Shown in pieces: positions 15,897-38,579 of a stretch of DNA of 64,000 nucleotides. The stretch's first letter is position 1, and the number at the start of each line of letters is the position of its first letter. The notes beneath the pieces are model-generated. The model was not told where the DNA came from, searched no databases, and was given only the letters and a program-made list of their open reading frames with translations. The position numbers and the translations under genes were made by a program. The stretch is from Brevundimonas naejangsanensis (GTDB lineage: Bacteria > Pseudomonadota > Alphaproteobacteria > Caulobacterales > Caulobacteraceae), in the NCBI RefSeq assembly GCF_000635915.2, contig NZ_CP015614.1:603501-667500 (forward strand), written 5' to 3'.

Positions 15897-17434
15897 CGCA
15901 GGGTCATTTCTTCATAGACCGGCACGCGGTGGCGGATTTTCACGTGGCCCACCCTGGGCGTATAGGCGAACAGGTCCTGGTGCTCGATCAGGAACAGCGA
16001 AGGCGCCGCCTCCCGGTACAGTCGACCCAGCGCCTGATAGGCCTTCAGCCGCTCGTCATCGTCCATGATCTCGCGCGCGGTCTTCAGCTTGTCGGTGATT
16101 TCCGCGTTGCAGAAGAAGGGCGTCGGCCGCATGCAGGAGAAGTCCTCCATGGCGCGGGTGACGTCGTAGTACTGGAAGCTGTTCCACGACAGGGCCAGCG
16201 CCTCGCCCGACCAGCTGTTGGTCTGATACTTCACCAGGAAGTCCGGCATGGTCATGACCTTGAGGCGGGTATCGACCCCGACGGCGCGCCAGTATTCGGC
16301 CACCGCCTGGGACATCATGTCGTCGCCCGGCGCCGCGTCGGTCAGGACCTCCATCGTCAGATTGAAGCCGTTCGGGTAACCGGCCTGCGCCAACAGGCGG
16401 CGCGCCTTGGCGGGGTCATAGGGGTAGGGCGCGATGGTCGGGTCGTAGCCGAACACTCCCTTGGCGGCAGGCTGGCCCGACGGCTTGGCGTTCTGCGGCA
16501 GCAGGGAGGCGATCGCCTCCTTGTCGACGGCGTAGTTGAGCGCCTGACGCACGCGAACGTCGCGCAAGGGCGAGGACGGATCGCCGCCCACGTTGCGGAA
16601 GGAGTAGGCCTTCACCTGCATGGAGGGTCTGTAAAGAACGTGGAAGCCGTTGCGCTCCAGCCGCTCCGTCTCCTCCAGGTCGACCAGAGACAGATCCACA
16701 TCGCCCGACAGCAGGGCCTGAGTCCGCCCCGCCGCGCTCGGCAGTTCGTAGAAGACCACGCCGTCGATCGTCGACGACCGCCATGATTTCGGGTTTCGGG
16801 CCAGGGTCAGGCGGCGGGTGCGCTGGTCCCAGCCGGTCATGACGAAGGCCCCGGTGCCGACCGGCTTCTGGGCGTAGGCGTCCATGCCCACCTCGGCCAG
16901 GGCTTTCGGCTCGATCATCATGATGGCGGCCAGGCGGCGCGGCAGGACCGGGTCGGGACGCTCGGTGCGGATCTCCAGTTCCAGCGGTCCGACGGCGCGC
17001 GCTTCGACGATGCCGCGCGCTTCGGAGCCGATCAGGGTGCGCTTGCCCTGATCCGAGCGCAGGAAGGCGAATACCTCGGCCGCGACCTCGGCGTCGAACG
17101 GGCGATCGTTGGAATAACGCACGCCTTCGCGCAGCTTGAAGCGCCAGACCGTCGGTTCGATCAGCGTCCATTCGGTCGCCAGGCCCGGCCCCAACTGGTC
17201 GTCGTCGTTGATGGCGGTCAGGCCGTCGTAAATGGCCAGCCACAGCAGGGAGCCGGGACGGCTGTTGCCCCGGAACGGATTGCCGAGGCTGGAAGGCAGG
17301 CTGGCGGCGGCGACGCGCAGCACCTGGCTGCCGGTCGCAGGCGTCGGCTTGTTCGCGGCGCCCTGGCTGCAGGCGGCGACCAGGGCGGCGCCGAGACAGG
17401 CGGCGATGAAGCGGCGAAGGCGGTTCGGCGTCAT
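15893..17434 (-). CDS. ABC transporter substrate-binding lipoprotein, peptide/opine family 5
   Basis: Periplasmic solute-binding protein of 513 residues for an oligopeptide/nickel/opine-type importer. The lipobox AALVAACS puts the acylated cysteine near residue 20. Family 5 features include YDGLTAINDDDQLGPGLATEW, the KLREGVRYSNDRPFDAE segment, and VRQALNYAVDKEAI. The start at 17434 is chosen because it overlaps the upstream ATPase stop (ATGA) and starts the signal peptide. Such binding proteins accept many ligands besides peptides, so the substrate is open. Confidence 0.9.
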   Translation of the reverse strand: MTPNRLRRFIAACLGAALVAACSQGAANKPTPATGSQVLRVAAASLPSSLGNPFRGNSRPGSLLWLAIYDGLTAINDDDQLGPGLATEWTLIEPTVWRFKLREGVRYSNDRPFDAEVAAEVFAFLRSDQGKRTLIGSEARGIVEARAVGPLELEIRTERPDPVLPRRLAAIMMIEPKALAEVGMDAYAQKPVGTGAFVMTGWDQRTRRLTLARNPKSWRSSTIDGVVFYELPSAAGRTQALLSGDVDLSLVDLEETERLERNGFHVLYRPSMQVKAYSFRNVGGDPSSPLRDVRVRQALNYAVDKEAIASLLPQNAKPSGQPAAKGVFGYDPTIAPYPYDPAKARRLLAQAGYPNGFNLTMEVLTDAAPGDDMMSQAVAEYWRAVGVDTRLKVMTMPDFLVKYQTNSWSGEALALSWNSFQYYDVTRAMEDFSCMRPTPFFCNAEITDKLKTAREIMDDDERLKAYQALGRLYREAAPSLFLIEHQDLFAYTPRVGHVKIRHRVPVYEEMTLR

Positions 17435-18324
17435 GAGGGGGACTGCTCCTGCATGAGGGCGTTCGCGCCGATGATGTCCATCACGCCGGCCAGCGCCTCG
17501 TCCGTGATCGGGCCGCCGGCTTCCAGGGCGGCGCTCAGGCGCGGGTCGGCCAGGGCGGCGGCCGGATTGAGGGCGGCGGCCAGCAGCAACTGCGTATAGG
17601 CGCTCTTGGGGTGATAGAGGACCTCTGCGACCGGCCCCTGTTCGACCACCTGACCGCCTTCGATGACGCACACGTGGTCGGCCATGCGGCGAACGCTGCG
17701 CATGTCGTGCGAGACGAACAGCATGGCCAGATTCAGCCGATCCTTCAGCTCCAGCAGCAGGGCGGAGACCTTGTCCTGATTGGCGAAGTCCAGGGCCGAC
17801 AACGCCTCGTCGGCGATCAGCAGGCGCGGCTCCATCGACAGGGCGCGGGCGATGGCGACGCGCTGTTTCTGCCCGCCGGACAGGGCGGAGGGCCGCAGGT
17901 CCAGCAGGCGACGGTCCAGATGAACGAGGTCCATCAGTTCTTCGACCCGCCGCCGTCGCGCCGCGCCGTCCAGCCTGCCCACCACGATCAGCGGCTCTTC
18001 CAGCACGGTGCGGATCGACTGGCGCGGATTCAGGCTGGCGCCGGGGTCCTGAAAGACCATCTGGATGCCGTGCAGCATGGCCTTGGAGCGCTTGCCCAGG
18101 GGCGGCAGGGCGACGCCTTCGAACATGATCCTGCCTTCAGCGGGCGTCGCCAGGCCGGCGACGGCGCGCACCAGGGTCGACTTGCCCGATCCCGACTCGC
18201 CGACGATGGCCATGACCTGACCGGGCGCCAGGTCGAAACCGGCGCCGCGCAGAACGAAGCGGCGGTCACGTCCGCTGCCGTAAGCGACCCCCAGGTTCTG
18301 AATCGACAGAAGCGGCGCGGTCAT
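17431..18324 (-). CDS. ABC transporter ATP-binding protein, OppF/DppF type
   Basis: 297-residue ATPase. Walker A GESGSGKST lies at 42-50, the Q-loop in VFQDPGASLNP at ~90, the signature LSGGQKQR at 148-155 and Walker B LLIADEAL at ~168-175. The C-terminal oligopeptide-transporter extension is short. It couples ATP hydrolysis to import with the OppD-type partner encoded just upstream (4-base overlap). Confidence 0.92.
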   Translation of the reverse strand: MTAPLLSIQNLGVAYGSGRDRRFVLRGAGFDLAPGQVMAIVGESGSGKSTLVRAVAGLATPAEGRIMFEGVALPPLGKRSKAMLHGIQMVFQDPGASLNPRQSIRTVLEEPLIVVGRLDGAARRRRVEELMDLVHLDRRLLDLRPSALSGGQKQRVAIARALSMEPRLLIADEALSALDFANQDKVSALLLELKDRLNLAMLFVSHDMRSVRRMADHVCVIEGGQVVEQGPVAEVLYHPKSAYTQLLLAAALNPAAALADPRLSAALEAGGPITDEALAGVMDIIGANALMQEQSPS

Positions 18325-19130
18325 GCCCGTCTCCCCAGGTGAGCGGCGTCCCGCAGGCTGCGGGTGAAGGGATGCCGGGGCTCGTACAGCACCTGCGTCG
18401 TGGGACCTTCCTCGACGATCTCGCCTTCCAGCATGACGGCGATACGGTCGCAGACAGCGCCGGCGGCTGCGATGTCGTGGGTGATCATCAGGGCGGCGGC
18501 CTGCTGGGCCTGACGCCGCAGCAGGGCCAGAATCTGTAACTGGACCGTCGGGTCCAGCGCCGTGGTCGGCTCGTCGGCCAGGATCAGCGCGGGCTGATTG
18601 ATTAGCGCCAGGCCGATCATGGCGCGCTGGCGTTGCCCGCCCGACAACTGGTGCGGGAAGGCGTCGACGCAGGCGTCGGCTCCCGGCAGGCGCATCGCTC
18701 GCAGGGTTTCGACGGCCAGGGCGCGGGCGGCCGCCTTGTCGAGGCCGCGATGGCGACGCGCCGATTCGATCAGAATGGAGCCGACCGTCTTCACCGGGTT
18801 GAACGAGGACAGGGGGTCCTGGAACACCATGCCGATGCGGCCGCCGCGCACGGCGCGCCAGTCCGCCTCGGCCAGATTGTCGATGCGGCGGCCTTCCAGA
18901 TGAATCTCGCCGCCCGCAACGCGCACGCCCGGCGGAACCAGGCCGCCGACGGCGAAGCAGGTCAAGGTCTTGCCCGACCCCGACTGGCCGACCAGGCCGA
19001 CGATCTCGCCGCGGCGGATCGTCAGGTCGAGGTTGGGGATCAACACGCGGCGGTCGGCGACGGTCTCCAACCTCAGCTTGCGGATATCCAGCACCATTTC
19101 GTGCGCCGTATTCAGCTCAGCAACGCTCAT
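18321..19130 (-). CDS. ABC transporter ATP-binding protein, OppD/DppD type
   Basis: 269-residue ATPase with Walker A GQSGSGKT, signature LSGGQRQRAM, Walker B LILADEPTTALD and a switch histidine in MITHDIAAAG. The start at 19130 overlaps the upstream permease stop (ATGA); a longer upstream reading lacks family similarity. It forms a heterodimer with the OppF-type protein that follows. Confidence 0.92.
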   Translation of the reverse strand: MSVAELNTAHEMVLDIRKLRLETVADRRVLIPNLDLTIRRGEIVGLVGQSGSGKTLTCFAVGGLVPPGVRVAGGEIHLEGRRIDNLAEADWRAVRGGRIGMVFQDPLSSFNPVKTVGSILIESARRHRGLDKAAARALAVETLRAMRLPGADACVDAFPHQLSGGQRQRAMIGLALINQPALILADEPTTALDPTVQLQILALLRRQAQQAAALMITHDIAAAGAVCDRIAVMLEGEIVEEGPTTQVLYEPRHPFTRSLRDAAHLGRRA

Positions 19131-19933
19131 CGGGTCAGGTTCCGCAGGTGCTGGCCCACGCTGTGGGCGGCCACGATGATGATGACCATGGCGAAGGCCG
19201 GGCCCAGCGTCAGCCACGGAGCCTGAAGCATGAAGGCGCGCCCTTCGCTCAGCATGGCGCCCCAGGTCGCGGCCCCCAGCGGTGCGCCGATGCCCAGGAA
19301 GGACAGGGCGCTTTCAGCCACAATCATCTCGGCGAAGTGGAAGACCACCAGCACCGACAGCGTCGGGACGAGGGCCGGCAGAACGTGGTGGGCGTAAAGA
19401 CGCGCGACGCCCATGCCGGTCATTTCGGCGGCCTGGACGTATTCACGCTGAAACAGGCTGCTGGCCTCGGCGTAGACGACGCGGGAGAAGACCGGCCAGG
19501 TCACCAGGCCGAGCGTCAGCGTGACCGCCCAGAAGCCGCTGTCGCCCAGCAGGGCGATCACCGTCACCGCCATGACGAAGGACGGAAAGGACTGGGTGAA
19601 GGTGGTCAGCAGCTTCAGGGCGCCGCCCAGCCAGGCGCCCTTGTGCGCCGCCGCCAGGCCGAAGGTCGTGCCGATGCTGAAGGCGATCAGGGTAGCGCAC
19701 AGGGCCGATCCTACCGACCAGCGCATTCCGTTCAGCAGACGCGCCAGCACGTCGCGCCCCAGTTCGTCCGTTCCCAACAGATGGCCCGGCGCCAGCGGGG
19801 CGGCCAGACGTATCGACAGGTCGATGGCGCGGTGGTCATGGCCGGACAGGGCGTCGCCGAAGATCATGACGGCGAGGCAGAACAGGCCCACCACGCCGGC
19901 GCCGACAATGGCGGGGGACAGGCTGCGGCTCAT
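19127..19933 (-). CDS. ABC transporter permease, DppC type
   Basis: 268-residue inner-membrane permease with about six helices. The early extracytoplasmic segment LAPGHLLGTDELGRDVLARLLNGMRWS is the DppC/OppC hallmark. The ATPase-coupling EAA-like loop reads YVQAAEMTGMGVARLYAHHVLPALVP. It overlaps the DppB-type gene by 4 bases. Confidence 0.92.
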   Translation of the reverse strand: MSRSLSPAIVGAGVVGLFCLAVMIFGDALSGHDHRAIDLSIRLAAPLAPGHLLGTDELGRDVLARLLNGMRWSVGSALCATLIAFSIGTTFGLAAAHKGAWLGGALKLLTTFTQSFPSFVMAVTVIALLGDSGFWAVTLTLGLVTWPVFSRVVYAEASSLFQREYVQAAEMTGMGVARLYAHHVLPALVPTLSVLVVFHFAEMIVAESALSFLGIGAPLGAATWGAMLSEGRAFMLQAPWLTLGPAFAMVIIIVAAHSVGQHLRNLTR

Positions 19934-20868
19934 GATGCAGCCCTCGCGCGGCTGCGGATGCGCGGGTCCAGCAGGGCCTGCACCGCCTCGGTGACGGCGT
20001 TGCTGAGGAAGACGCTGACCACCATGACGAAGACCACGGCCTGCACCACGGGGAAGTCCAGGTTCAGCGTGGACTGCACCAGCAGCCAGCCGATGCCGGG
20101 CCAGGCGAAGATGGTCTCGATGACCACCAGCCCCGTCAGCATGAAGGCCAGTTCAGCCCCGATCAGGGCGACGGCGCCCAGCAGGGCGTTGGGCAGGACA
20201 TGGCGCCACAGGATCTGGTTCTCGGACGCCCCGGTCGAGCGCGCGGTGCGCACGAAGTCGGCGGCCAGGGCGGCATGAGTGTTGGCCTCGACCACGCGGA
20301 TCAGCTTGGGGGCCAGGAAGGAGACGACCGAGATCACCGGCAGCACCCAGGTCGCCGGTCCGCCGTAACCGATCGAGGGCAGCCATTCGAGCCCGGCGGC
20401 GAACAGGTTGATCAACAGCAGGGCGATGACGAAACCGGGAAATCCCTGCATCACCGTCAGCACGCCGCGCACCGCACGACGCGCCGCCCCGGTGCGCTTC
20501 TGCCCCAGCCAGGCGCCCAGCGGCAGCGAGATCAGCAGGTTCAGACTCAGCGCCATGGCGGCCAGGAACAGGGTGGCGGGCAGGGAGGCCAGGACCTTGC
20601 CCAGAGCCGGGCTTCCATCGGTCAGCGACTTGCCGAAGTCGCCCTGGAGCAGACGCAGCATGGTCTGGCCGTACTGGACGATCAGGCTCCTGTCGAAGCC
20701 GTATTCGACGCGGATCGCCTCGATCTGAGCCGGAGAGGCGCCTTCGCCCGCAATGACCAGGGCCGGGTCGCCGGTCAGCCGCAGCAGGAAGAACAGCACT
20801 GTCATTGCGGCGATCAGGACAAAGGCGAAGTCCCTCAAGCCGCCAAGCATACGAGAAGAGGAAAACAT
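19930..20868 (-). CDS. ABC transporter permease, DppB type
   Basis: 312-residue permease and first gene of the operon (permease, permease, ATPase, ATPase, binding protein, flavoprotein). The N-terminal helix is followed by GDPALVIAGEGASPAQIEAIRVEYGFDRS by position ~32-60, a DppB/OppB feature. The coupling loop is FVRTARSTGASENQILWRHVLPNA. The end has the usual DPRIRSR. A weak GTATC-N6-AAGAC element lies about 84 bases upstream of the start, resembling operators found at other units of this island. Confidence 0.92.
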   Translation of the reverse strand: MFSSSRMLGGLRDFAFVLIAAMTVLFFLLRLTGDPALVIAGEGASPAQIEAIRVEYGFDRSLIVQYGQTMLRLLQGDFGKSLTDGSPALGKVLASLPATLFLAAMALSLNLLISLPLGAWLGQKRTGAARRAVRGVLTVMQGFPGFVIALLLINLFAAGLEWLPSIGYGGPATWVLPVISVVSFLAPKLIRVVEANTHAALAADFVRTARSTGASENQILWRHVLPNALLGAVALIGAELAFMLTGLVVIETIFAWPGIGWLLVQSTLNLDFPVVQAVVFVMVVSVFLSNAVTEAVQALLDPRIRSRARAAS

Positions 20869-20951: not shown

Positions 20952-20967
20952 GTATCTAAGTTAAGAC
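20952..20967. promoter_or_regulatory. Weak class 1 palindrome upstream of the ABC operon
   Basis: GTATC, six bases, AAGAC. It fits the GTATY-N6-RATAC pattern of 32293, 32451, 35000 and 38564 in spacing, but each half has one mismatch to the best site and the two arms agree at only 3 of 5 positions. Confidence 0.35.
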
Positions 20968-23491: not shown

Positions 23492-23511
23492 ATGATATAA
23501 AACTATATCAT
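23492..23511. promoter_or_regulatory. Perfect 8-base inverted repeat between gcdH and the hydratase operon (class 2)
   Basis: ATGATATA, four bases (AAAC), TATATCAT. It lies 62 bases before gcdH and 45 bases before the aconitase-family gene, so one bound dimer could control both. It is very AT-rich against the GC-rich background. A related element with the same spacing is at 28897. Confidence 0.75.
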
Positions 23512-28896: not shown

Positions 28897-28914
28897 TGGT
28901 ATAAAGATATGCCA
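28897..28914. promoter_or_regulatory. Class 2 palindrome upstream of the amidase gene
   Basis: TGGTATA, four bases (AAGA), TATGCCA; six of seven arm positions pair. It has the same arm/spacer layout as 23492-23511 (TGATATA-N4-TATATCA). It sits 18 bases before the likely GTG start, a position suited to repression. Confidence 0.65.
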
Positions 28915-28969: not shown

Positions 28970-29770
28970 TCAGGCGCCGTCCTGCCAGTTTCCGTCTTCG
29001 CGACGGCTGAGCAGGTGATAGCGGAAGCGGTCGGCGTGATAATGGGCGTGAATATACTGGACCGGTTCGCCGTCGGCCCGGCGCATGATCCGCTCGACCC
29101 TGAGCAGGGGCGACCCGATCGCCACCTGGAGCGCCGAGGCCGCAGCAGTGTCTGCGCCGACTGACGAGATCCACAGTTCAGCCTCATGCGGCGTCGCCCC
29201 GGCTCGCTCCAGCAGGTCCAGCATGGACTGTTCAGCGAAGGCGGCGTCGTCACATCCGCTGGCGACGAACTCCGGCAGCCACGACACCAGATAGGAAAAA
29301 GGCGTCTCGCCCAGCCGACGCAGGCGGATGATGCGCCGCACGGGCGCGCCGGGGCTGACCGCCAGCGCGTGCGCGACGTCGCTATCAGCCGCGACGGACC
29401 GGCTTTCCAGCAACTCGACCTGGGTTTCGTGCCCCATGGTCTTGAGCGAATCCATCAGGGTGGAGAAGGATCCTGTCACCACAGGCAGTTCGACCTGCGG
29501 CGCCACCACCGTGCCGCGGCCCCGATGGCGCGTGACCAGGCCCGCATCGGCCAGTTCATTCATGGCGCGCTTGATCGTGATTCGCGACGCGCCCAGCAGT
29601 TCTGCGATCTGATGCTCACCGGGCAACAGGCAGCCGGGCGGAAACACGCCGCGCCGGATCCGCTCGGCGAGCAGCAGCCGAACCTGATGATACAGGGGGA
29701 TCGGCAGCCGGTCGTCCAGAAGCTCGGGACGCAGGTCCAAGGCGTCGTCTGTCGGCGGGGATGAGGTCAT
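28970..29770 (-). CDS. GntR-family transcriptional regulator, HutC/UTRA subfamily (1)
   Basis: 266-residue repressor-type regulator. The winged helix-turn-helix lies at ~30-95 (PLYHQVRLLLAERIRRG, GEHQIAELLGASRITIKRAMNELADAGLV, HRGRGTVV) and the UTRA effector domain fills the rest (RRIIRLRRLGETPFSYLVSWLP, PLLRVERIMRRADGEPVQYIHAHYHADRFRY). The ATG at 29770 with AAGG upstream is preferred over a TTG at 29806. It is divergent from a second GntR gene, with an inverted repeat between. It is a candidate binder of one of the two palindrome classes in the island. Confidence 0.9.
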   Translation of the reverse strand: MTSSPPTDDALDLRPELLDDRLPIPLYHQVRLLLAERIRRGVFPPGCLLPGEHQIAELLGASRITIKRAMNELADAGLVTRHRGRGTVVAPQVELPVVTGSFSTLMDSLKTMGHETQVELLESRSVAADSDVAHALAVSPGAPVRRIIRLRRLGETPFSYLVSWLPEFVASGCDDAAFAEQSMLDLLERAGATPHEAELWISSVGADTAAASALQVAIGSPLLRVERIMRRADGEPVQYIHAHYHADRFRYHLLSRREDGNWQDGA

Positions 29771-29836
29771 GCCGCCTTGTGTGGCGTGCGGCGGCGATGG
29801 AGACAAGCCGGAGTGGCCAACCCGCTAAGGTCTGAT

Positions 29837-29858: not shown

Positions 29859-29891
29859 GACGACGCAGGCCCTGACGCCGGCGTGTGGAGG

Positions 29892-30722
29892 ATGAGCTTG
29901 GCCAGACAGGGCGCTGGGGCAGGGACCGATATCGGTCGACGCAGCCTCAAGGCGGACGGCGGTTCCAGCAGCCTGCCGATCTACCACCAGCTGACCACCA
30001 TTCTGCGTCAGCAGATCAAGGACAGCGCCTTTGCGCCGGAGCAGCCGCTGCCGTCCGAAATGCAGCTGGCGGCGGCCTATGACGTGTCGCGCGTGACGGT
30101 GCGGCGCGCGCTGGATCTGCTGGAACGCGAAGGCTGGATTCGACGCAAGCATGGCGTCGGCACCTTCGTCGCCCCCCGTGCTGATGAGGCGCAGCGAGAG
30201 GAAAGCCGGGTGTCGGGCCTGGTCGAGAACCTCATCACCCTGGGGCTTGAGACGACGGCGCGGCTTTTGGCCTATGAACCCGAGGCGCCCACGCCGGCCG
30301 CCGTGCTTCAGGCGCTGGGCCTTCCCGCCGACGAGCGGGCGCTGCGGATCGAGCGCCTGCGTTTCTTCAAGGACAAGCCCCTGTCGGTGACGACGGTGTG
30401 GCTGCCTCGTTCCGTCGCCTCCCTGACGCCCCGCAGCGTCATCGATGACCGGCCGATCATGCGCATTCTGGAAAGCGGCGGAATACGCGCCCAGCGCGCC
30501 GAACAGACCATCAGCGCCATTCTCGCCGACGACGCGGCGGCCAATAAGCTGAATGTGGCCATCGGGGCGCCGCTGCTGCGCCTGCGCCGCACCGTGTTTG
30601 ACGGCGACGGCCGCCCGTTCGAGCATCAGGTCGGCCTCTATAATCCCGATCAGTATGAGTACCACATGCTGCTGACGCGCGATAACAGCTCGGCCCGTCC
30701 GCAGTGGCGCCACATCGGCTGA
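29892..30722 (+). CDS. GntR-family transcriptional regulator, HutC/UTRA subfamily (2)
   Basis: 276 residues. Winged helix-turn-helix near 28-95 (LPIYHQLTTILRQQIKDSAF, PSEMQLAAAYDVSRVTVRRALDLLEREGWI, KHGVGTFVAP), then a UTRA ligand domain (LRIERLRFFKDKPLSVTTVWLP, LRRTVFDGDGRPFEHQVGLYNPDQYEY). The start is uncertain: GGAGG directly abuts the ATG at 29892, so a TTG at 29898 (better spacing) or GTG at 29883 is possible. It belongs to the same subfamily as the neighbour but is only moderately similar, consistent with different operators or effectors. Confidence 0.9.
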   Translation: MSLARQGAGAGTDIGRRSLKADGGSSSLPIYHQLTTILRQQIKDSAFAPEQPLPSEMQLAAAYDVSRVTVRRALDLLEREGWIRRKHGVGTFVAPRADEAQREESRVSGLVENLITLGLETTARLLAYEPEAPTPAAVLQALGLPADERALRIERLRFFKDKPLSVTTVWLPRSVASLTPRSVIDDRPIMRILESGGIRAQRAEQTISAILADDAAANKLNVAIGAPLLRLRRTVFDGDGRPFEHQVGLYNPDQYEYHMLLTRDNSSARPQWRHIG

Positions 30723-30752: not shown

Positions 30753-30764
30753 ACCCAGTCGGGA

Positions 30765-32258
30765 TCAGACGCCGAACTTGCGCAGCGGCACGTCGGCCAG
30801 AGGAATGGTCGTCGTCTTCTCTTCGGTGAAGAAGGCCATGGAGGCGGCGGCGCCGTCGCGGCCCAGGCCTGAATCCTTCACCCCGCCGAACGGCGCGCGC
30901 AGTTCACGCACCATCGGGGTGTTGACCCACATCAGACCGGTACGAACAGCCTGACTGACCCTCAGGGCCTTGTCCACGTTCTGCGTCCAGCAATAGCCGA
31001 CCAGGCCGAACTGGCTTTCATTGGCCATGCGGACGGCGTCCTCCATGTCGCTGAACTTCACGAAGGCGGCGAAGGGGCCAAAGATTTCCTCCTGACAGAC
31101 GCGGTCGCTGTTGTTGGGCGCCAGGACGGCGGTCGGCTCGATGAAATAGCCCGGTCGGTCCAGCGCCTTGCCGCCGGTCAACAGGGTCGCGCCCTGACTT
31201 TTGGCGATGTCGACATAGGACAGGATGTGCTGACGGTGGCGGGCGGAGGCGATGGGGCCGATCTCGGTGGCGTCGTCCAGCGGGTCGCCGACGCGGATCT
31301 TTCGCGCCCGCTCGACGAAGCGATCAACGAACTCGTCGAAGATGGAATCCTGGACCAGGATGCGCGACCCGGCCAGGCACTGTTGCCCGTTGTTCGAGAA
31401 GATGGAGATCAAGGCGCCGTCCAGGGCCCGCTCCTGATCGGCGTCGGCGAAGATGATGTTGGCCGACTTGCCGCCCAGCTCCATCGCCGCCGGTTTCAGC
31501 CGCCGTCCGGCCGCCTGCATGATGTGGCGGCCCGTCTCGGTCCCGCCGGTGAAGGAGATCAGATCGACCTCGGGGTGATCCACTAGGGCGGCGCCCGTCA
31601 CCGCCCCGCGGCCGTTCACCAGGTTGACCACGCCCGGCGGGGTGATGGTGTTGATGATCTCGACCATGCGGGCCAGGGACAGCGGAGTCTGCTCCGACGG
31701 CTTCAGCACGCAGGTGTTGCCGAAGGCGATGGCCGACGCGACCTTCATCGACGCCAGCGCCAGCGGCGAGTTCCACGGCGCGATCAGGGCAGCCACGCCG
31801 ACGGGATGGCGCGTGACGAAGGTCAGGTGATCCTTGATCTGCTGCCAGACCTGGCCGGGCTGCTGGCTGATCGCCTCGGCGAAGAAGCGGAAATTATAGC
31901 CTGCACGCACGACCTGGCGGCTGAGAACGTCGCGCAGGACGATGCCGGCGTTCAGCGTTTCCAGCGTCGCCAATTCCACGGCGTGGGCGTCGATGGCGTC
32001 AGCGATCCGGTAAAGGATCGCCTGTCGGGCCTCTACCGACATCTCGCGCCAGGCGGGATCGTTGAAGGCCCGGCGGGCCGACCGGACCGCACGATCGACT
32101 TCCTCGGCGTCGGCTTCCTGCAGTTCGGAGATGACTTCTCCGTTGCCCGGATAATAGGCGGGCAGACGATGGCCGCCGCGCTCTGCGACATAGGCGCCGT
32201 CAATCAGGCTGGTGACCGTTTTGGGAGCCCAGTCGAACGGGGAAGCGGGGAGGGACAT
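30765..32258 (-). CDS. NAD(P)-dependent aldehyde dehydrogenase (hydroxymuconic-semialdehyde dehydrogenase-like)
   Basis: 497-residue aldehyde dehydrogenase. Catalytic Glu lies in ELGGKSANIIF and catalytic Cys in NNGQQCLAGSRILV; GGTETGRHIMQAAG is the cofactor loop. The style resembles 2-hydroxymuconic or betaine/vanillin-type aldehyde dehydrogenases used in aromatic catabolism. It is divergent from the FAD hydroxylase, and the 230-base gap holds two class 1 palindromes, so the two are probably co-induced. Inferred: oxidation of an aldehyde produced before or after ring hydroxylation. Confidence 0.9.
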   Translation of the reverse strand: MSLPASPFDWAPKTVTSLIDGAYVAERGGHRLPAYYPGNGEVISELQEADAEEVDRAVRSARRAFNDPAWREMSVEARQAILYRIADAIDAHAVELATLETLNAGIVLRDVLSRQVVRAGYNFRFFAEAISQQPGQVWQQIKDHLTFVTRHPVGVAALIAPWNSPLALASMKVASAIAFGNTCVLKPSEQTPLSLARMVEIINTITPPGVVNLVNGRGAVTGAALVDHPEVDLISFTGGTETGRHIMQAAGRRLKPAAMELGGKSANIIFADADQERALDGALISIFSNNGQQCLAGSRILVQDSIFDEFVDRFVERARKIRVGDPLDDATEIGPIASARHRQHILSYVDIAKSQGATLLTGGKALDRPGYFIEPTAVLAPNNSDRVCQEEIFGPFAAFVKFSDMEDAVRMANESQFGLVGYCWTQNVDKALRVSQAVRTGLMWVNTPMVRELRAPFGGVKDSGLGRDGAAASMAFFTEEKTTTIPLADVPLRKFGV

Positions 32259-32292
32259 GAGCGGTCATCCTGATACTGTGGCGACTTGTGTT

Positions 32293-32308
32293 GTGTTTAA
32301 GCTAATAC
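32293..32308. promoter_or_regulatory. Class 1 palindrome upstream of the aldehyde dehydrogenase
   Basis: GTGTT, six bases (TAAGCT), AATAC; four of five arm positions pair. It is 35 bases before the gene start, the same distance as the 35000 site from its minus-strand gene. Confidence 0.6.
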
Positions 32309-32450
32309 GTGATCGATGCGGATCGCAAGGCGAGAGGGTGCGGTGAGGCAAAAGCTGCTTCATTGGCTCTTTGAGGCGTCGAAGTTTCCTTAAATGCGCG
32401 AGGCTGCAGGGAAGTCTGCGACTCTTCCCTTGCTGGAATGCTGAACAAAT

Positions 32451-32466
32451 GTATTAAGTCAGATAC
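32451..32466. promoter_or_regulatory. Class 1 palindrome upstream of the FAD hydroxylase
   Basis: GTATT, six bases (AAGTCA), GATAC; with flanking T and A it becomes TGTATT-N6-GATACA. It ends 22 bases before the ATG at 32489. Confidence 0.6.
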
Positions 32467-32488
32467 AAGTAGGCATGAGGTCGCCAAT

Positions 32489-33688
32489 ATGCAGCAATGG
32501 GACGCCCAAGTGGTCATCGTCGGCGCCGGCCCGGTCGGGTTGAGCGCGGCCTTGAGGCTGGAAGCTTTCGGGATTTCAGCCATCGTGCTTGAGGCCGAAA
32601 CGGAGTTGCCTGAAGACCTGCGGGCGTCGACGTTTCATCCCCCGACGCTGGACATGCTGGCGCAGTACGGACTGGCCGAGCCGCTGATCGCTCAGGGGCT
32701 GAAGTGCGAACAGTGGCAGATCCGTCATCATGAAACCGGGGAACGCGCCGTATTCGACCTGTCCTATCTGCAGGGCGAGACGCTGCATCCCTTCCGGCTG
32801 CAGTGCGAACAGTTTCGTCTGTGCCGCATCCTGGCCGACCACCTGTCAGATGCGCGTCATGTCGAAATCCGTATGGGCGCAACGGTGTGCGCCGTGGATC
32901 AGGATGCAGACGGCGTCAACGTCACCTATGAGCAGGGCGGTCAGGAGCAGACTCTGCGCTGTCGCTATCTGATCGGGGCGGACGGCGCCCGTAGCGCGGT
33001 GCGGACCCTGCTGGGGTGGGAGCTTGACGGCAAGACCTATCCTGAGACGACCATCCTCGCGATCACGGACTTCCCCTTTGAAGACCATCTGGAGGGGCTG
33101 TCGAACGTCAACTACTGCTGGACGGACGGCGGCACCTTCTCCCTGCTCAAGCTGAAGGATTTCTGGCGCTGCAGCCTCTATCCGCGCGGCGAAGAGTCCA
33201 TCGAGGACGCGCTGGACCCCACCAGCATCGAGCGCAAGCTTCAGGCCATCGTCGCCAGGGACGAGCCCTATAAGGTGCTGGAGATCCGTCCCTATCGCGT
33301 GCACATGAGGATCGCGCCTGATTACCGCAGCGGACGGGTCGTGCTGGCGGGCGACGCCGCCCACATCAACAGCCCGTCCGGCGGGATGGGCATGAACGGC
33401 GGCGTCCATGACGCCTTCAACCTGACCGAAAAGCTGAAGGCCGTTCTGGACGGCGCCGACGAGAGGCTGCTGGATCTCTACACCCGCCAGCGCCGCCCTA
33501 TCGCCGAGCAGGAGATCCTGGCCCAGGCGGATCGCAACCGTGGCCGGATGCAGGAGCGCGACCCGGAGCGCCGCAAGGTCATGATGGCCGAGATGCAGGC
33601 CATGCTGGCCGATCCTGTGCGGCACAAGGATTATGTGATGCGGTCATCCATGATCGACGGCCTGCGCAAGGCGGCGACGCTGACCTGA
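32489..33688 (+). CDS. FAD-dependent aromatic-ring monooxygenase (PheA/TfdB-type)
   Basis: 399-residue class A flavoprotein hydroxylase. Motifs: GxGxxG in VVIVGAGPVGLSAALRLEAFGI, DG motif in YLIGADGARSAVRTLLG, and GD motif in RVVLAGDAAHINSPSGGMGMNGG. Such enzymes hydroxylate phenols, hydroxybenzoates or hydroxypyridines with NAD(P)H and O2. The start at 32489 is chosen because a GAGG site precedes it and because an upstream ATG at 32438 would place the palindrome inside the coding region. It is probably an early ring-attack step of the island. Confidence 0.9.
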   Translation: MQQWDAQVVIVGAGPVGLSAALRLEAFGISAIVLEAETELPEDLRASTFHPPTLDMLAQYGLAEPLIAQGLKCEQWQIRHHETGERAVFDLSYLQGETLHPFRLQCEQFRLCRILADHLSDARHVEIRMGATVCAVDQDADGVNVTYEQGGQEQTLRCRYLIGADGARSAVRTLLGWELDGKTYPETTILAITDFPFEDHLEGLSNVNYCWTDGGTFSLLKLKDFWRCSLYPRGEESIEDALDPTSIERKLQAIVARDEPYKVLEIRPYRVHMRIAPDYRSGRVVLAGDAAHINSPSGGMGMNGGVHDAFNLTEKLKAVLDGADERLLDLYTRQRRPIAEQEILAQADRNRGRMQERDPERRKVMMAEMQAMLADPVRHKDYVMRSSMIDGLRKAATLT

Positions 33689-33754
33689 GGCGAGCTCCTC
33701 CGTGCGTCGCTGCTTGAGGGAGCATCGGCGAAAGCGGAAGGGGGGGCGCGGGCG

Positions 33755-33789
33755 ACGGGCCGGGATGCGAAGGCGTCCCGGCCCGTTTT
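33755..33789 (+). terminator. Intrinsic terminator after the FAD hydroxylase
   Basis: Eleven-base perfect stem ACGGGCCGGGA / TCCCGGCCCGT with a ten-base loop followed by TTTT-like sequence (GTTTTC) on the plus strand. Confidence 0.8.
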
Positions 33790-33793
33790 CGCA

Positions 33794-34087
33794 TCAGGCG
33801 CCTAACTGTCCCTTGAGGGCGTCGACCTCTTCCTGAAGTACGTAGAACACACGGTCGGTTAGCGCCGCGTGGCGCGCGCGGCGCGCGGCCTGTTCCTGCT
33901 CGGTCAGGACATGATGATCGACCGCGTCTGGCGACAGAACGCCCTGGGCGGCCAGCAGGTTTTCCAGCGTCGCCACCCGGTCGCTCAACCCGGCCACCTC
34001 AGTCACCAGGGCGGTGATGATGGCGGTCAGCCGGTCATTGGCGGTGTCTTCGAAGAAGGTCGGGCGGGGCGGCTTGGGCGTGGACAT
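33794..34087 (-). CDS. Small hypothetical protein with coiled-coil stretch
   Basis: 97 residues. The start at 34087 has a clear GAGGAG site. Residues ~18-45 (TAIITALVTEVAGLSDRVATLENLL, given by position) show heptad-like spacing and suggest a helix that oligomerises. The rest is charged (LTEQEQAARRARHAALTDRV). It lies 35 bases after the Asp/Glu racemase-family gene, probably the same transcript. I do not recognise the family; a helper or subunit role is possible. Confidence 0.65.
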   Translation of the reverse strand: MSTPKPPRPTFFEDTANDRLTAIITALVTEVAGLSDRVATLENLLAAQGVLSPDAVDHHVLTEQEQAARRARHAALTDRVFYVLQEEVDALKGQLGA

Positions 34088-34122
34088 CGGGAAACTCCTC
34101 GAAACGAAATCAGAATAGGGCG

Positions 34123-34965
34123 TCAGGCGCTCTTCAGCCGGGCGTGAACGGCGGGGAAACGGCTCCATAACCGTTCGCGCCAGGGGGCGTCGGGCGCGAG
34201 CCAGTCCGTGATCAGCGGCCGCTCTTCCAGTCCCAAATGACGCGCGACCGACCAGGCTGTGGCCAGGTTGGAGGACAGGATCGGGATATCCGTTTCCTCG
34301 CTGGCGACGGCCAGGGCGGCCAGGCTTGGCGCGCCCGTTCCCATGACGATCACGGCGTCGGCGACGCCCGCCTTCAGGCCTTGGCGCAGCCCTGTCAGCA
34401 GGGTGGCGGCCGTCTGGCCGTAGATCGGGTGGGTCGCGCCATGCGCGAGGGGCGACTGGATGACAGCGGCCACATCATATCCCGCCGCGCGCCAGTGGTC
34501 CTGAGCGGCCTCGGTCAAGGCAGAAGGGTAAGGGCTGACCAGGGTGATGCGCTGCGCCCTCAGCGATTGCAGGCCATCCTTCAGCGCATCGGCGGCGCAG
34601 ACGACGGGGCAGGGCCCGTGGCGACGCTCCAGCGCTTCCGGCCGACGCCGCGAAGGGCCCAGCAGATAGGTCGAGCCGGTGCAGGCGAACGCAACGGCGT
34701 CCAGCGGCGCGTCCCCGAAAGGGGCCAGCCATTCCTCAAGCCGCGTCTCATAGGCCCTCAGCCTGGCGCTCATCTCGGAAGCGGGCGCATACATGCGCGC
34801 TGTCAGCAGGTTCACGTCCGGCGGCAACAGCAGCGACAGCTCGGGCTCGGCGGTCGGGTTTTCGGCCGGGGTCAGCAGGGCGACCACGCCGCGCGCGCCC
34901 AGATCGGGCCGATCGTGCTCCACACCGGATGCAGCGTGAACAGGGGGCGGCGAGATTGAAGGCAT
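34123..34965 (-). CDS. Asp/Glu racemase superfamily protein (maleate isomerase / arylmalonate decarboxylase-like)
   Basis: 280 residues. LGARGVVALLTPAENPTAEPELSLLLPP resembles the N-terminus of maleate cis-trans isomerases. FACTGSTYLLG carries the first active-site cysteine. The second half motif VIVMGTGAPSLAAL lacks the second cysteine normally used by two-cysteine maleate isomerases, so the chemistry may be decarboxylation or a one-base isomerisation. It is divergent from the methyltransferase, sharing a perfect class 1 palindrome. In nicotinate-type pathways this family makes fumarate from maleate; the role here is inferred. Confidence 0.78.
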   Translation of the reverse strand: MPSISPPPVHAASGVEHDRPDLGARGVVALLTPAENPTAEPELSLLLPPDVNLLTARMYAPASEMSARLRAYETRLEEWLAPFGDAPLDAVAFACTGSTYLLGPSRRRPEALERRHGPCPVVCAADALKDGLQSLRAQRITLVSPYPSALTEAAQDHWRAAGYDVAAVIQSPLAHGATHPIYGQTAATLLTGLRQGLKAGVADAVIVMGTGAPSLAALAVASEETDIPILSSNLATAWSVARHLGLEERPLITDWLAPDAPWRERLWSRFPAVHARLKSA

Positions 34966-34999
34966 GGTCCGATCCGACGAAGAGACTTCCGCATAAGAG

Positions 35000-35015
35000 G
35001 TATTTGAGATAATAC
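35000..35015. promoter_or_regulatory. Perfect class 1 palindrome between the racemase-family gene and the methyltransferase
   Basis: GTATT, six bases (TGAGAT), AATAC. All five arm positions pair. It is 35 bases from the minus-strand gene and 43 bases from the plus-strand gene and could serve both. GT...AC ends fit the general GntR operator shape. Confidence 0.75.
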
Positions 35016-35057
35016 ATCATGAAAGGCTGAACGCCAGTCGAACATGGAGGAGAGCGC

Positions 35058-36218
35058 ATGATCATCGACCGTACGGCCACCCATGAGCTTCTGGCGCGGC
35101 CGCTTCACGACGAGGCGGCGCGCACCCAGTACATCGTGCAGTTGAAAAACCGGCTGCGCCGCTATGAGGACGCCAACAAGGTCGCCCTGGACGCCCGCGC
35201 TGGGCCCGCCTTCAAGGCCGCCTCGGGCAGGGCGCCCGAAACCGTCGAGGACATCACGGCGGCCATGGTCCGTGATCCTTTCTATCAGATCTGGAGCGCC
35301 TTCAGCCGCAGCGCTCAGGACGTCATGTGGAACTCGGTGGGAGAGACCATTCATCGCGAACTGCCGCGCATGAAGGAGGTCGCCGTCAGTCTGGCCCAGG
35401 CGCCGGCGGGCGGCAGCTGCGAAACCAGCCCCGACTTTGCGGCTCCGGCCGACGCCTATGCCGGCCACATCCACGGCCAGCCCGGCGGCTATATGCTGGG
35501 CGAGGGTTCAGCCGACGACTTCACGGCCGGGGCCTTCTATGAAAGCGGGGGCAACGCCTATTCTCTGGGCGTCGGCATCGGCACGCGCGACTCCAAGTCT
35601 GCGGCCGTCATTGAATTCCTGGCTGAGCGTTATCCCGGCTTCAAGCCGCGTCGCATTCTGGATCTGGCCTGTTCTTCGGGCGGCGCCACGGTCGGCTATG
35701 CGGCGGCCTTTCCCGAGGCCGAGGTCTACGGCGTCGACGTGGCGCCGGGCCTGCTGCGCTACGCCCATATCCGGGCCGAGGCGATGGGATTGAAGGCGCA
35801 CTTCCGTCAGATGGATGCGGGCGCCATGCCGTTCGAGGACGAAAGCTTTGATCTGGTCGTGTCGCACAACATGATGCACGAGGTCTCGCGCGCTTCGCTC
35901 GGCCGCATTTTCAGCGAGGCGCGCCGCGTCCTGCGCCCCGGCGGCGTGGTCGTGCATCAGGACGTGCCGATGAAGGGCGCCGATTTCAGCGCCTTCGAGA
36001 AGTTCATCTTCGCCTGGCAGACCAAGAACAACGACGAACCCTTCTGGGACGAGTTCCTGGCGACACAGGCGCCGGACGTCATGCTCGAAGCGGGTTTCGC
36101 GGCTGACGAAGTGCTGGAGACGACGGTGCGGATGCGGGACGGCCCGCGCGCCTGGTATATCGTGCTGGGCGAGAAGCCCGACGCTGAGGGACGTCGCGGC
36201 ACGGCTCTCACCCGCTGA
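35058..36218 (+). CDS. Class I SAM-dependent methyltransferase
   Basis: 386 residues. The C-terminal ~200 residues form a Rossmann methyltransferase: SAM motif RRILDLACSSGGATVGYA, acidic loop VYGVDVAPGLLRYAHIRAEAMGLKAHF (by position ~225-250), GAMPFEDESFDLVVSHNMMHEV, and FSEARRVLRPGGVVVHQD. The first ~150 residues are an extra helical region of unknown function (LKNRLRRYEDANKVALDARAG). A strong GGAGGAG site precedes the start. The acceptor is unknown; within a catabolic island it may modify the substrate or an intermediate, or be a repurposed enzyme. Confidence 0.85.
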   Translation: MIIDRTATHELLARPLHDEAARTQYIVQLKNRLRRYEDANKVALDARAGPAFKAASGRAPETVEDITAAMVRDPFYQIWSAFSRSAQDVMWNSVGETIHRELPRMKEVAVSLAQAPAGGSCETSPDFAAPADAYAGHIHGQPGGYMLGEGSADDFTAGAFYESGGNAYSLGVGIGTRDSKSAAVIEFLAERYPGFKPRRILDLACSSGGATVGYAAAFPEAEVYGVDVAPGLLRYAHIRAEAMGLKAHFRQMDAGAMPFEDESFDLVVSHNMMHEVSRASLGRIFSEARRVLRPGGVVVHQDVPMKGADFSAFEKFIFAWQTKNNDEPFWDEFLATQAPDVMLEAGFAADEVLETTVRMRDGPRAWYIVLGEKPDAEGRRGTALTR

Positions 36219-36240
36219 TCGACCCGGCGATCAAATGATG

Positions 36241-36278
36241 AAAAAGGCCCCGGACGCATCGCCGTCCGGGGCCTTTTT
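36241..36278. terminator. Strong bidirectional terminator
   Basis: AAAAAGGCCCCGGACG / CGTCCGGGGCCTTTTT with a six-base loop: an 11-base GC stem flanked by A5 and T5, so it works on both strands. It ends the methyltransferase transcript and blocks readthrough from the receptor. Confidence 0.9.
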
Positions 36279-36315
36279 GCATCACCGGCCAGAAGCTGCC
36301 CGAGGCCGGGGCCTC

Positions 36316-36350
36316 AAAGAAAAAGGGCCCGCAGCGTGAACTGCGGGCCC
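36316..36350 (-). terminator. Intrinsic terminator of the receptor gene
   Basis: Ten-base stem GGGCCCGCAG / CTGCGGGCCC at 36325-36350, with a T-rich tail on the minus strand (complement of the A-run at 36316-36324). It lies 22 bases after the receptor stop. Confidence 0.88.
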
Positions 36351-36371
36351 AACCAACTTCCGGAAGGCAGG

Positions 36372-38528
36372 TCAGAAGTTGGCTTCGTAGGTCAGGCCGA
36401 TCTGACGACCGCGCGGCAGGGAGCCCACAAAGCCGCGACGGTTGGTGGTGAAGTCCGAATAGCGGACGATGCCGACAGGATCGATGTTGTCGAAGATGTT
36501 GCGGCCGAACAGGATCACCCGGTGCGGGCCGCGCTCCCACCCCAGCTGCACGTTGGCGGTGTCGCGGCCGTCCACCCAGGCGAGGTTGGCGACCTGATCA
36601 TACTTCTTGGAGCGGAAGGAATAGGTGCCGTCGACGAAGAAGCGGTTCTCGCCGACGTACCAGGCGTAGTTGCTGCCCAGGGAGTACTGGATCTTGGGCG
36701 CGTTGGGGATCGCCTTGCCGCTGACGTCGCCGTCGCCCCCGGTCAGGGTGGCGAAGTCCGGGTCGAACGCATTGGTGTATTCGGAATCCGCATAGGCGAA
36801 GGTGCCGCGCACGGACCAGTCGGAAGTGATCTTGGCCTGGGCCTCGACCTCGACGCCCTTGACCTCGACCTCGCCGACATTGCGGATGAAGGAGACGGTT
36901 TCGGTCGAGGACAGGTTGGCCACCTGGGTCATCTGCTGGTTCGACCAGTCGATATAGTAGCCGGCGACGTTCAGGCGGACACGGCGATCGAACAGATCGC
37001 TCTTGAAGCCCAGTTCATAGTTCCAGGCGGTCTCTTCGCCGTAGGAGCGATCCGCGGGGCTCAGGCGCACGTCGGTGTTGAAGCCGCCCGGCTTGTTGCC
37101 GCGCGCCACCAGGCCATAAAACATCAGGTCGTCAGTGGCCTTATACGACATGGTGAAGCGCGGGTTGGTCGAGCGATAGGTCGCTTCGTAATCGAAGTTG
37201 GAATCGCCGCCGGTCAGGTGGAGCTTTTCTTCGGCGACCCGCACTTCGGCCGTGCCCGACAGCTTGTCGGTGAAGTCGAAGCCGACCAGGCCGAAGGCGG
37301 CCAGGTTTTCCGTTTCGATCGTGCCGTTGTCCTGCAGGGCGCGTGAGACATAGCGATAACGCCCGTCCCAGCGGTCGCTGTTGAAATAATAGGCCCCGGC
37401 CATCCAGTGCAGGCGTTCGCCGCGCGGCGAGGCGATGCGGAACTCCTGGCTGAAGCCCTTGATGTTCACCCGGTCGTCGACATGCAGCGAGCCGCCCAGC
37501 AGGCGCTGGGGCAGGTAATCAAGGTCGGCCTTTCGGTGCTCTTCGGAGTCGTTATAGGCGCTGATCGAGGTCAGGGTGTAGCCGCCGTGATCGTATTCGG
37601 CGGTCAGGCTCAGACGGCCGGTCTTGCGTTCAACGCCGCCGCCGCCGATTTCATCCAGATTCAGGCCGATCATGTCGGGCGTGACGTTGATGGCGCCGCA
37701 ATAATACTGGGTGCGCGTGTTCAGATAGCAGTTGTTGGCGCTCGAGCGTTGGATCGCCATCGGCTCGTGGCCGTCGTTGTTATGGGCGTACGAGCCGCGC
37801 AGGATGAAGCTCAGTTCCGACGTCGGCGTGTACATCAGCGCCAGGGTGCCGCCGACGGTCTTTTCCTGACCGGTGGTCTTGCCGTCGCTGGGCGTGCCGG
37901 GCGCGTTGTTCCGGTACTCGCCGCCATAGGTGTAGTAGTTGACGGACGCCTGGGCCGACAGCACGTCCTTCACCAGCGGCCCGCTGAGGCCCATCAGGAA
38001 GTTGTATTCGTCATGCTCGGCCGCGGTGGCGCGGATCAGGGCCTCGACGTCCTGCGACGGCTTGCGTGTCGTGTAGCTGATCGCGCCCGAGAAGGTCTGG
38101 CGGCCGTACAGGGCCGACTGCGGTCCCTTGATCACCTCGACCTGATCGACGAAGGCCATTTCGGTGGCGAACAGGCTGTCCGGGATATAGACGCCGTCGA
38201 TGAAGGAGGCGGCGTTGGGCGCGCCGAAGACGTTGGCCTGGCCGCGAATGACCGGGCGCTCGAAGCGGCGGCCCTGGTCTTTCTCGATGTTCAGACCCGG
38301 CGCGATCGAGGACAGATCCGTAACGTCTCGAATGCCGCGACGCTGCATTTCCTCGGCATTCAGGGCGGTAATGGCCAGCGGGACCTCTTGCAGACGCTCG
38401 CTGGTCTTGCGTGCGGTGACTATGATGTCATCGACCTGGGCGGTTTCTTGGGCTGCGGCGACGCTGGCCAGGACGCTGAAGCCGGCCGCGACGGCAGTCA
38501 TGGCTAAGGCGTGGGTACAATGTTTCAC
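36372..38528 (-). CDS. TonB-dependent receptor of the catabolic island
   Basis: 718-residue outer-membrane receptor. The signal peptide ends VAAAQ; the TonB box region DDIIVTARKTSERLQEVPLAIT leads into the plug (DVTDLSSIAPGLNI, VEVIKGPQSALYGRQTFSGAISY). The barrel ends in TYEANF. The start is taken as GTG at 38528 with GGGGAG five bases upstream; a start at 38594 would include the palindrome at 38564 and a long non-signal leader. This sub-type (DDIIVTA...LQEVP) is widespread in sphingomonads and Caulobacter for aromatic and plant-derived compounds. The operator suggests it imports the island's substrate. Confidence 0.92.
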   Translation of the reverse strand: MKHCTHALAMTAVAAGFSVLASVAAAQETAQVDDIIVTARKTSERLQEVPLAITALNAEEMQRRGIRDVTDLSSIAPGLNIEKDQGRRFERPVIRGQANVFGAPNAASFIDGVYIPDSLFATEMAFVDQVEVIKGPQSALYGRQTFSGAISYTTRKPSQDVEALIRATAAEHDEYNFLMGLSGPLVKDVLSAQASVNYYTYGGEYRNNAPGTPSDGKTTGQEKTVGGTLALMYTPTSELSFILRGSYAHNNDGHEPMAIQRSSANNCYLNTRTQYYCGAINVTPDMIGLNLDEIGGGGVERKTGRLSLTAEYDHGGYTLTSISAYNDSEEHRKADLDYLPQRLLGGSLHVDDRVNIKGFSQEFRIASPRGERLHWMAGAYYFNSDRWDGRYRYVSRALQDNGTIETENLAAFGLVGFDFTDKLSGTAEVRVAEEKLHLTGGDSNFDYEATYRSTNPRFTMSYKATDDLMFYGLVARGNKPGGFNTDVRLSPADRSYGEETAWNYELGFKSDLFDRRVRLNVAGYYIDWSNQQMTQVANLSSTETVSFIRNVGEVEVKGVEVEAQAKITSDWSVRGTFAYADSEYTNAFDPDFATLTGGDGDVSGKAIPNAPKIQYSLGSNYAWYVGENRFFVDGTYSFRSKKYDQVANLAWVDGRDTANVQLGWERGPHRVILFGRNIFDNIDPVGIVRYSDFTTNRRGFVGSLPRGRQIGLTYEANF

Positions 38529-38563
38529 GGTGGCTCCCCTGTCATGCCCTCTTGGCCGAGCAT

Positions 38564-38579
38564 GTATCTTTATGAATAC
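38564..38579. promoter_or_regulatory. Class 1 palindrome upstream of the receptor
   Basis: GTATC, six bases (TTTATG), AATAC; four of five arm positions pair. It is 36 bases before the GTG start, matching the distances at 32293 and 35000. Confidence 0.6.

Follow-up and report, generated by a model that had tools for sequence, protein, structure and literature searches.

Regulation of a catabolic island

Which regulator controls the scattered catabolic and uptake genes of an island in Brevundimonas naejangsanensis, and through which DNA site? The island lies in a stretch of 64,000 nucleotides (contig NZ_CP015614.1, positions 603,501 to 667,500), which is referred to here as the window. It contains genes for an aldehyde dehydrogenase, a flavin adenine dinucleotide (FAD) hydroxylase, a racemase-family protein, a methyltransferase, and a TonB-dependent receptor, together with two neighboring regulators of the GntR/UTRA type, GntR1 and GntR2. 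An initial annotation had proposed that a repeated palindrome, GTATY-N6-RATAC (class 1), unites these genes in one regulon. The comparison of sequences confirms this observation: the class 1 sites mark a conserved predicted regulon that includes the outer-membrane receptor. The palindrome is very probably the operator of GntR2, which would control the predicted class 1 units, with GntR1 acting separately on genes of a lower pathway. A reader, an operator, and a membership list can be assigned to the scattered catabolic and uptake genes.

Class 1 sites in the window and in the genome

The class 1 sites are AT-rich palindromes close to start codons. All five palindromes were recovered where they had been reported. 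A pattern scan of the window finds GTATY-N6-RATAC in exact form at 32451, 35000, and 38564, and with a single mismatch at 32293 (GTGTT...AATAC) and 20952 (GTATC...AAGAC). The description as AT islands in GC-rich DNA is correct, the G+C content of the sites being 0.25-0.31 versus 0.67 for the window. The good sites had been placed 22-42 bases before start codons. This holds for the aldehyde dehydrogenase gene (34 bases; start at 32258), the hydroxylase gene (22 bases; 32489), and the two genes that diverge from site 35000, the racemase-family gene (34 bases; 34965) and the methyltransferase gene (42 bases; 35058). For the TonB receptor the distance is about 35 bases only if a GTG near 38528 is the start, which is assumed because the longest frame with an ATG (38594) places the site inside the gene. 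Looping between the sites of the aldehyde dehydrogenase/hydroxylase region was considered and dropped, since start-to-start distances of 158 in the window and of 150 and 149 in two related genomes (G024 and G118) do not preserve the helical phase. A sigma-70 scan of 28800-38750 gave two promoter-like matches versus 1.2 expected, none of them at the operators, and the same interval has six terminator-like matches versus 5.0 expected.

In its exact form the motif lies upstream of several units and is rare elsewhere in the genome, while with mismatches it is not rare. The genome-wide scan that the initial annotation had suggested finds three exact sites in 2,971,535 bases, all of them in the island and no more than 6.2 kb apart; the reversed control gives one. 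With up to two mismatches there are 19 matches in the window versus 19.2 expected, and with up to one mismatch there are 46 places in the genome versus 50 for the reversed control, both of which are background. Since the pattern was defined on the window sites, sites from foreign genomes were used for a matrix test. The matrix was built from 13 sites of other genomes. The same pattern (zero or one mismatch) had served to preselect them in orthologous clusters, which limits the independence of the test. Over the window it gives ranks 1-4 to the four sites originally called good (17.0-24.8 bits) and rank 6 to 20952 (12.6 bits). The next match after rank 6 scores 8.2, and the maxima in 20 simulated windows are 6.3-13.7. 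Rank 5, at position 1075, was rejected as an operator; it lies within a TonB-receptor gene and is probably due to chance. When the whole genome was searched at E<=10 with a sequence model of 22 foreign-genome sites, just two places were reported, 35000 and 32451 of the window, and the other three sites fell below the threshold.

Conservation in related islands

Orthologous genes are preceded by class 1 sites even in relatives with protein identity as low as 56%. In a search of 200 related genomes with the hydroxylase, 24 were over the threshold, including the source genome, and orthologues with 56-99% identity are present in nine other genomes. The sites recur in the islands of three near-copies (G031, G051, and G059; 97-99%), in G024 and G118 (81-82%; near each other), and in Glycocaulis albus (G155; 72%). 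A class 1 site stands ahead of an operon for a coenzyme A (CoA)-transferase, the hydroxylase, and the racemase-family protein in G145 (59%), and G140 (56%) has a one-mismatch site 5' of the hydroxylase gene and an exact site 5' of the receptor gene. The ninth genome, G005 (59%), is 66% complete; it lacks a GntR2 orthologue, with its best GntR matches at 33%, and the stretch read contains no exact site. The orthologous ATP-binding cassette (ABC) importer operon of G024 and of G118 is preceded by an exact class 1 site. This supports the site at 20952, which had been listed as a weak fifth palindrome and is stronger than that.

The exact sites are concentrated around the islands. In the five non-close genomes, 11 of 28 exact sites are within about 190 kb around orthologous islands, out of 15.3 Mb (P ~2e-14, although G024 and G118 are near each other). 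The near-copy genomes have 3/4, 3/4, and 3/5 of their exact sites in the island, and G005 has 0/2. Intergenic alignments show that the palindrome is conserved above its flanks. In the promoter of the racemase-family/methyltransferase pair, with five sequences aligned, the palindrome arms are the longest invariant blocks. The receptor promoter has invariant arms as well, and its other invariant block is CTGTCAA, which reads as a TTGACAG element on the strand of the gene.

The distance between the half-sites is fixed. Seven of the 12 GntR2 loci (260 kb) were examined for it, not counting the near-copies, G003, and L121. In these seven clusters GTAT-N8-ATAC is found 16 times, whereas every other gap from 0 to 20 gives 0-4. 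The N8 form is absent from 346 kb in 18 regions that lack a GntR2 orthologue, and other gaps give 0-4 there. Direct repeats of the form GTAT-Nk-GTAT (k 0-20) give 0-5 per gap in the seven clusters, none standing out. The canonical HutC operator GTMTAKAC is not enriched; it is absent from six of the seven clusters and occurs once in G087.

GntR2 as the proposed reader

The domains of GntR2 place it in the GntR family and the HutC subfamily, and the operator proposed for it is atypical. It has a GntR winged helix-turn-helix (PF00392; 75.9 bits, cut-off 27) and a UTRA domain (PF07702; 107.1 bits, cut-off 23.8), and a C-terminal PQWRH is common to the orthologues aligned. GntR1 is also of the winged helix-turn-helix plus UTRA type, and the two proteins are about 35% identical to each other. 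They fall into separate groups of a midpoint-rooted tree, GntR1 with 15 rows (support 100/100) and GntR2 with nine (95/88).

The class 1 sites occur together with GntR2. At least one exact site is found at ten of the 12 GntR2-orthologue loci read, versus none of the 18 regions without an orthologue. Two of these regions are from G005 and 16 surround GntR1-like genes, three of the 16 belonging to genomes that have GntR2 at another place. The two loci without an exact site are G003 and L121 (Phenylobacterium), and in L121 a two-mismatch site precedes the methyltransferase gene. In G024 and G118 the GntR1-like gene is far off, and the class 1 sites and GntR2 stay together. When open reading frames of at least 90 amino acids from G118 that match the window were compared with G024, G155, G145, and G140, GntR2 was the sole regulator recognized among the shared ones, the others being the aldehyde dehydrogenase, hydroxylase, racemase-family protein, methyltransferase, and receptor. 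Of the two GntR/UTRA genes in the middle of the island to which the initial annotation had pointed, GntR2 is therefore the best candidate reader, and GntR1 goes with a different palindrome.

Distant relatives carry the same palindrome in front of a gntR gene. Contigs from one genome per species were scanned with the GntR2 alignment, and the best 80 loci among the matches listed were taken. An exact class 1 site is within the stored flanks of ten of these loci, two of which are G031 and G155 again. A site at a Moorella locus (L156) is exact and GC-rich, unlike the others. In seven loci the exact site precedes a third-clade gntR gene, 77-172 bases ahead of its matched start; these loci come from two Ruegeria, Roseobacter, Planktotalea, Paracoccaceae, Methylocystaceae, and Ectothiorhodospiraceae. 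The third clade comprises 21 upstream regions (19 rows of the tree and two probable members added by genus), seven of which have an exact site with the six-base spacer; every other spacer from 0 to 14 gives 0/21, and 48 other GntR loci have no exact site at any spacer. For 13 of 19 third-clade members the best matrix match is located within 245 bases upstream (0.3 expected). The matrix alone is less clean, as 10 of 52 other GntR loci have their best match there too (0.9 expected); two of these loci probably belong to the clade. A site before the regulator's own gene, as in these distant proteobacteria, is a usual sign of autoregulation. Alphaproteobacteria and at least one gammaproteobacterial locus have the wide-spaced operator geometry.

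Several observations weigh against GntR2 as the reader. In the window no class 1 site is found 5' of its gene (29790-29890), and autoregulation there was rejected on a best matrix score of 4.4 bits. Class 1 sites are mostly more than 1.5 kb from GntR2 genes (1/12 within that distance). G003 has a 70% identical GntR2 and no convincing site, and the 30 kb read there also lack most of the regulon genes. The aldehyde dehydrogenase/hydroxylase region of G155 has weak matches, the best at 12.7 bits; this region and G005 are where the expected conservation between orthologous islands is weak and absent, respectively. The third clade and GntR2 are not sister groups in the midpoint-rooted tree, and with one mismatch the clade gives 7/21 at spacer 3, next to 10/21 at spacer 6. 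Finally, a class 1-like sequence, GTCTTATTTCAAAGAC, lies beside a GntR1-like gene of G024 (L103, 6761), 67 bases 5' of the PD1 homologue. This could reflect cross-talk between two regulons, and the split between them is not perfect.

Other possible readers of the class 1 sites

The class 1 sites might be read by GntR1 (28970-29806), or by both GntR proteins. GntR1 adjoins GntR2, its own palindrome has the TG...CA pair at the same distance from the center, and GTCTTATTTCAAAGAC is a class 1-like site near one of its homologues. It is very improbable that GntR1 has this role, since exact class 1 sites are absent from all 16 regions that surround GntR1-like genes (46-52% identity in 15 of them and 36% in G165), and within 1.5 kb of 26 GntR1-like proteins the other palindrome is present in 19 and a class 1 site in none. 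In G087, moreover, no GntR1 gene was found, the only match being GntR2 itself, yet an exact class 1 site is present. A regulator encoded elsewhere is also conceivable, with GntR2 as a mere neighbor. The distance between the half-sites is compatible with the TetR, MarR, PadR, and LysR families as well, the GntR2 gene of the window is not itself preceded by a site, and the comparison of shared regulators covered the stretches read around the clusters. This is nonetheless highly unlikely given that GntR2 is the only regulator recognized among the shared cluster genes and that its distant relatives have the same palindrome close before their own coding starts.

That the palindromes are chance or AT-rich promoter sequence instead of operators is scarcely credible. 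The background frequency of forms with one or two mismatches would agree with chance, some class 1 sites contain TATAAT, and AT-rich intergenic DNA inflates matrix matches, as in the 10/52 other loci above. The fixed spacing, the ranks given by the foreign-genome matrix, and conservation above the flanks in islands with about 81% identical hydroxylases point the other way. GntR2 remains the preferred reader.

A second palindrome and GntR1

The island appears to hold two regulons with two GntR regulators and two operators. The second palindrome has the consensus TGRTATA-N4-TATAYCA and is found in the window before the leuCD/lyase/deacetylase operon and the isochorismatase-family gene, so that the single regulon of the initial annotation is retained for the genes with conserved class 1 sites and not for these. 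Of 26 distinct GntR1-like proteins, many closely related to one another, 19 have this palindrome within 1.5 kb when up to two mismatches are allowed. The palindrome is near 4/12 GntR2 proteins, three of them because islands of the window type hold both genes, and near 4/74 other GntR proteins. This linkage suggests that TGRTATA-N4-TATAYCA is a candidate operator through which GntR1 would control the lower-pathway genes. Paralogous regulators side by side, with two palindromes, form a small natural test case for the evolution of GntR specificity.

Genes of the regulon and a candidate pathway

The predicted features are listed in Table 1. The GntR2 regulon probably includes the ABC importer. Genes that share class 1 sites should act on the same compound, and the sites thus provide a handle on the substrate.

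Table 1. Predicted regulatory sites, regulators, and regulon genes of the island (window coordinates)
Feature	Position	Strand	Basis
ABC importer operon, dipeptide/nickel class: two permeases, two ATPases, binding protein	15893..20868	-	open reading frames, domain scans, orthologous islands
Weak class 1 operator GTATCTAAGTTAAGAC, one mismatch, 83 bases 5' of first ABC importer permease gene	20952..20967	.	exact orthologous sites in G024 and G118; matrix rank 6
Second palindrome class ATGATATAAAACTATATCAT, 5' of leuC-like operon, not class 1	23492..23511	.	
Second palindrome class TGGTATAAAGATATGCCA, 5' of isochorismatase-family gene, not class 1	28897..28914	.	
GntR1, GntR/UTRA regulator, proposed reader of second palindrome class	28970..29806	-	domain scans, tree, palindrome linkage
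GntR2, GntR/UTRA (HutC-type) regulator, proposed class 1 reader	29883..30722	+	domain scans, orthologue comparison, alignment, tree
Aldehyde dehydrogenase, class 1 regulon	30765..32258	-	domain scans, orthologous islands
Class 1 operator GTGTTTAAGCTAATAC, one mismatch, 5' of aldehyde dehydrogenase gene	32293..32308	.	aligned with GTCTTAAACCTAATAC / GTCTTTAACCTAATAC in G024, G118
Class 1 operator GTATTAAGTCAGATAC, 5' of FAD hydroxylase gene	32451..32466	.	scans, alignment, matrix, sequence model
FAD_binding_3 hydroxylase, nearest solved relatives PnpA and HspB, class 1 regulon	32489..33688	+	domain scan, orthologue and structure-relative searches
Asp/Glu racemase / arylmalonate decarboxylase superfamily protein, class 1 regulon	34123..34965	-	domain scans
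Class 1 operator GTATTTGAGATAATAC, amid divergent racemase-family and methyltransferase genes	35000..35015	.	scans, alignment including G155, matrix, sequence model
Class I methyltransferase-fold protein, N-terminal part without assignment, class 1 regulon	35058..36218	+	domain scans
TonB-dependent receptor, class 1 regulon, GTG start inferred	36372..38528	-	domain scan, orthologous islands
Class 1 operator GTATCTTTATGAATAC, 5' of TonB receptor gene	38564..38579	.	scans, alignment, matrix

Lower-pathway genes are found at 21006-28915 of the window. They encode two PuuE-like deacetylases, an isochorismatase-family hydrolase, a homoaconitase-like (leuCD-like) pair, and a methylisocitrate-lyase-like enzyme, and genes for a glutarate-CoA-transferase-like protein and an acyl-CoA dehydrogenase adjoin them. 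None of the lower genes reaches an NCBIfam equivalog cut-off; the homoaconitase-like pair reaches subfamily cut-offs. In an Ectothiorhodospiraceae locus (L124) class 1 sites are beside genes for deacetylases, isochorismatase-family protein, lyase, leuCD, and acyl-CoA dehydrogenase, with no CoA-transferase seen. In Ruegeria pomeroyi, a locus that carries a class 1 site (L160) has a caprolactamase-like protein at 5510-7576, below the family cut-off. Its gene adjoins an isochorismatase-like gene, judged by eye, and a lyase gene, and no PuuE-like match was seen there.

In the candidate route, PuuE-like imide hydrolases would be followed by a half-amidase of the isochorismatase family and a homoaconitase-like hydratase. 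Methylisocitrate-lyase-like cleavage would yield pyruvate and glutarate, and glutarate would pass to the CoA-transferase and a glutaryl-CoA dehydrogenase. This gene content could fit a cyclic imide of the substituted maleimide type as the substrate, such as hematinic acid, a breakdown product of tetrapyrroles, converted to pyruvate and glutarate. Literature searches, judged at the level of search results, turned up no description of a pathway of the hematinic acid type. A wider proposal is possible though rather doubtful: an undescribed, widespread branch of UTRA regulators would read TGTATTA-N4-TAATACA and, together with GntR1 (TGATATA-N4-TATATCA), govern an undescribed pathway that opens a cyclic imide or lactam and then cleaves the substituted maleate formed from it.

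Three other features of the islands were observed. A protein of 124 amino acids (33794-34168, minus strand) has no Pfam or NCBIfam match and is kept between the hydroxylase and racemase-family genes in G031, G051, G059, G024, G118, and G155. An FAD-binding protein (14451-15896, minus strand) adjoins the ABC importer operon and has homologues at the same operon in G024 and G118; by eye it is like flavocytochrome c / tricarballylate dehydrogenase proteins. The G145 cluster (L042, L043), with both GntR genes inside, is flanked by two similar short transposase-like reading frames, presumably IS6-like, as if it were a mobile unit.

Proposed mechanism and comparison with known regulators

HutC proteins are mostly repressors. 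In the preferred reading, a dimer of GntR2 would bind two TGTAT-like half-sites and repress the genes for the hydroxylase, the aldehyde dehydrogenase, the racemase-family/methyltransferase pair, and the TonB receptor, and probably those of the ABC importer as well. Once bound in the UTRA domain, a metabolite of the pathway would release it; the presence of this domain is what suggests release by a ligand. The sequences show the sites, their conservation and constant spacing, their linkage to GntR2 orthologues, and the lack of exact sites near GntR1-like genes, whereas binding, repression, and ligand release by GntR2 are inferred. In the receptor promoter, a 17-base spacer after TTGACA puts the transcription start, by arithmetic on the positions, inside or just before the operator, and with the predicted start there, repression by blocking would be the simplest reading. 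Literature searches, again judged by their result lists, turned up no description of a GntR2-type regulator or of the class 1 motif.

The closest known systems are those of the HutC subfamily (NagR/YvoA, DasR, and PhnF), which share with GntR2 the winged helix-turn-helix and UTRA domains, GT and AC ends, AT-rich palindromes, and double sites in divergent regions. The GT...AC ends noted by the initial annotation do fit GntR operators; the distance between them does not fit HutC. According to PMC4494728, GT and AC are 4 nt apart in most HutC operators. The HutC form GTMTAKAC has this distance, compared with 12 in class 1, which is therefore outside the published HutC consensus. NagR is a repressor in which Arg38 and Arg48 read two adjacent guanines and the wing reads a third, as stated in PMC4333415. 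All 12 aligned GntR2 rows retain Arg48 and the wing Gly. In place of Arg38, which reads one G of the GG, the aligned GntR2 proteins have Met, or Ser or Asn in the case of the two orthologues that are most distant. The change of Arg38 fits an operator arm with a single conserved G, and it leaves the 12-base distance unexplained.

Exceptions to the HutC consensus come closer to the class 1 sites. Among the exceptions given in PMC4494728, FarR and NagQ have the half-sites TGTATTAWTT and TGGTATT as direct repeats, and SdhR has a long palindrome, TCTTATGTCTTATATAAGACATAAGA. The FarR and NagQ half-sites resemble the class 1 TGTATTA and the TGGTATA of the second class, but the class 1 repeats are inverted and enriched at one gap, whereas direct GTAT repeats are enriched at none. 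The inner part of the SdhR palindrome, GTCTTA-N2-TAAGAC, resembles variant class 1 sites such as GTCTTAAACCTAATAC; SdhR has GT-N10-AC with extra symmetry, in contrast to GT-N12-AC in class 1. The YtrA subfamily of GntR is like class 1 in having GT and AC far from the center of a long palindrome. YtrA proteins differ in that they have a short C-terminal domain and mostly control single ABC operons, while GntR2 has a full UTRA domain and is predicted to control several units.

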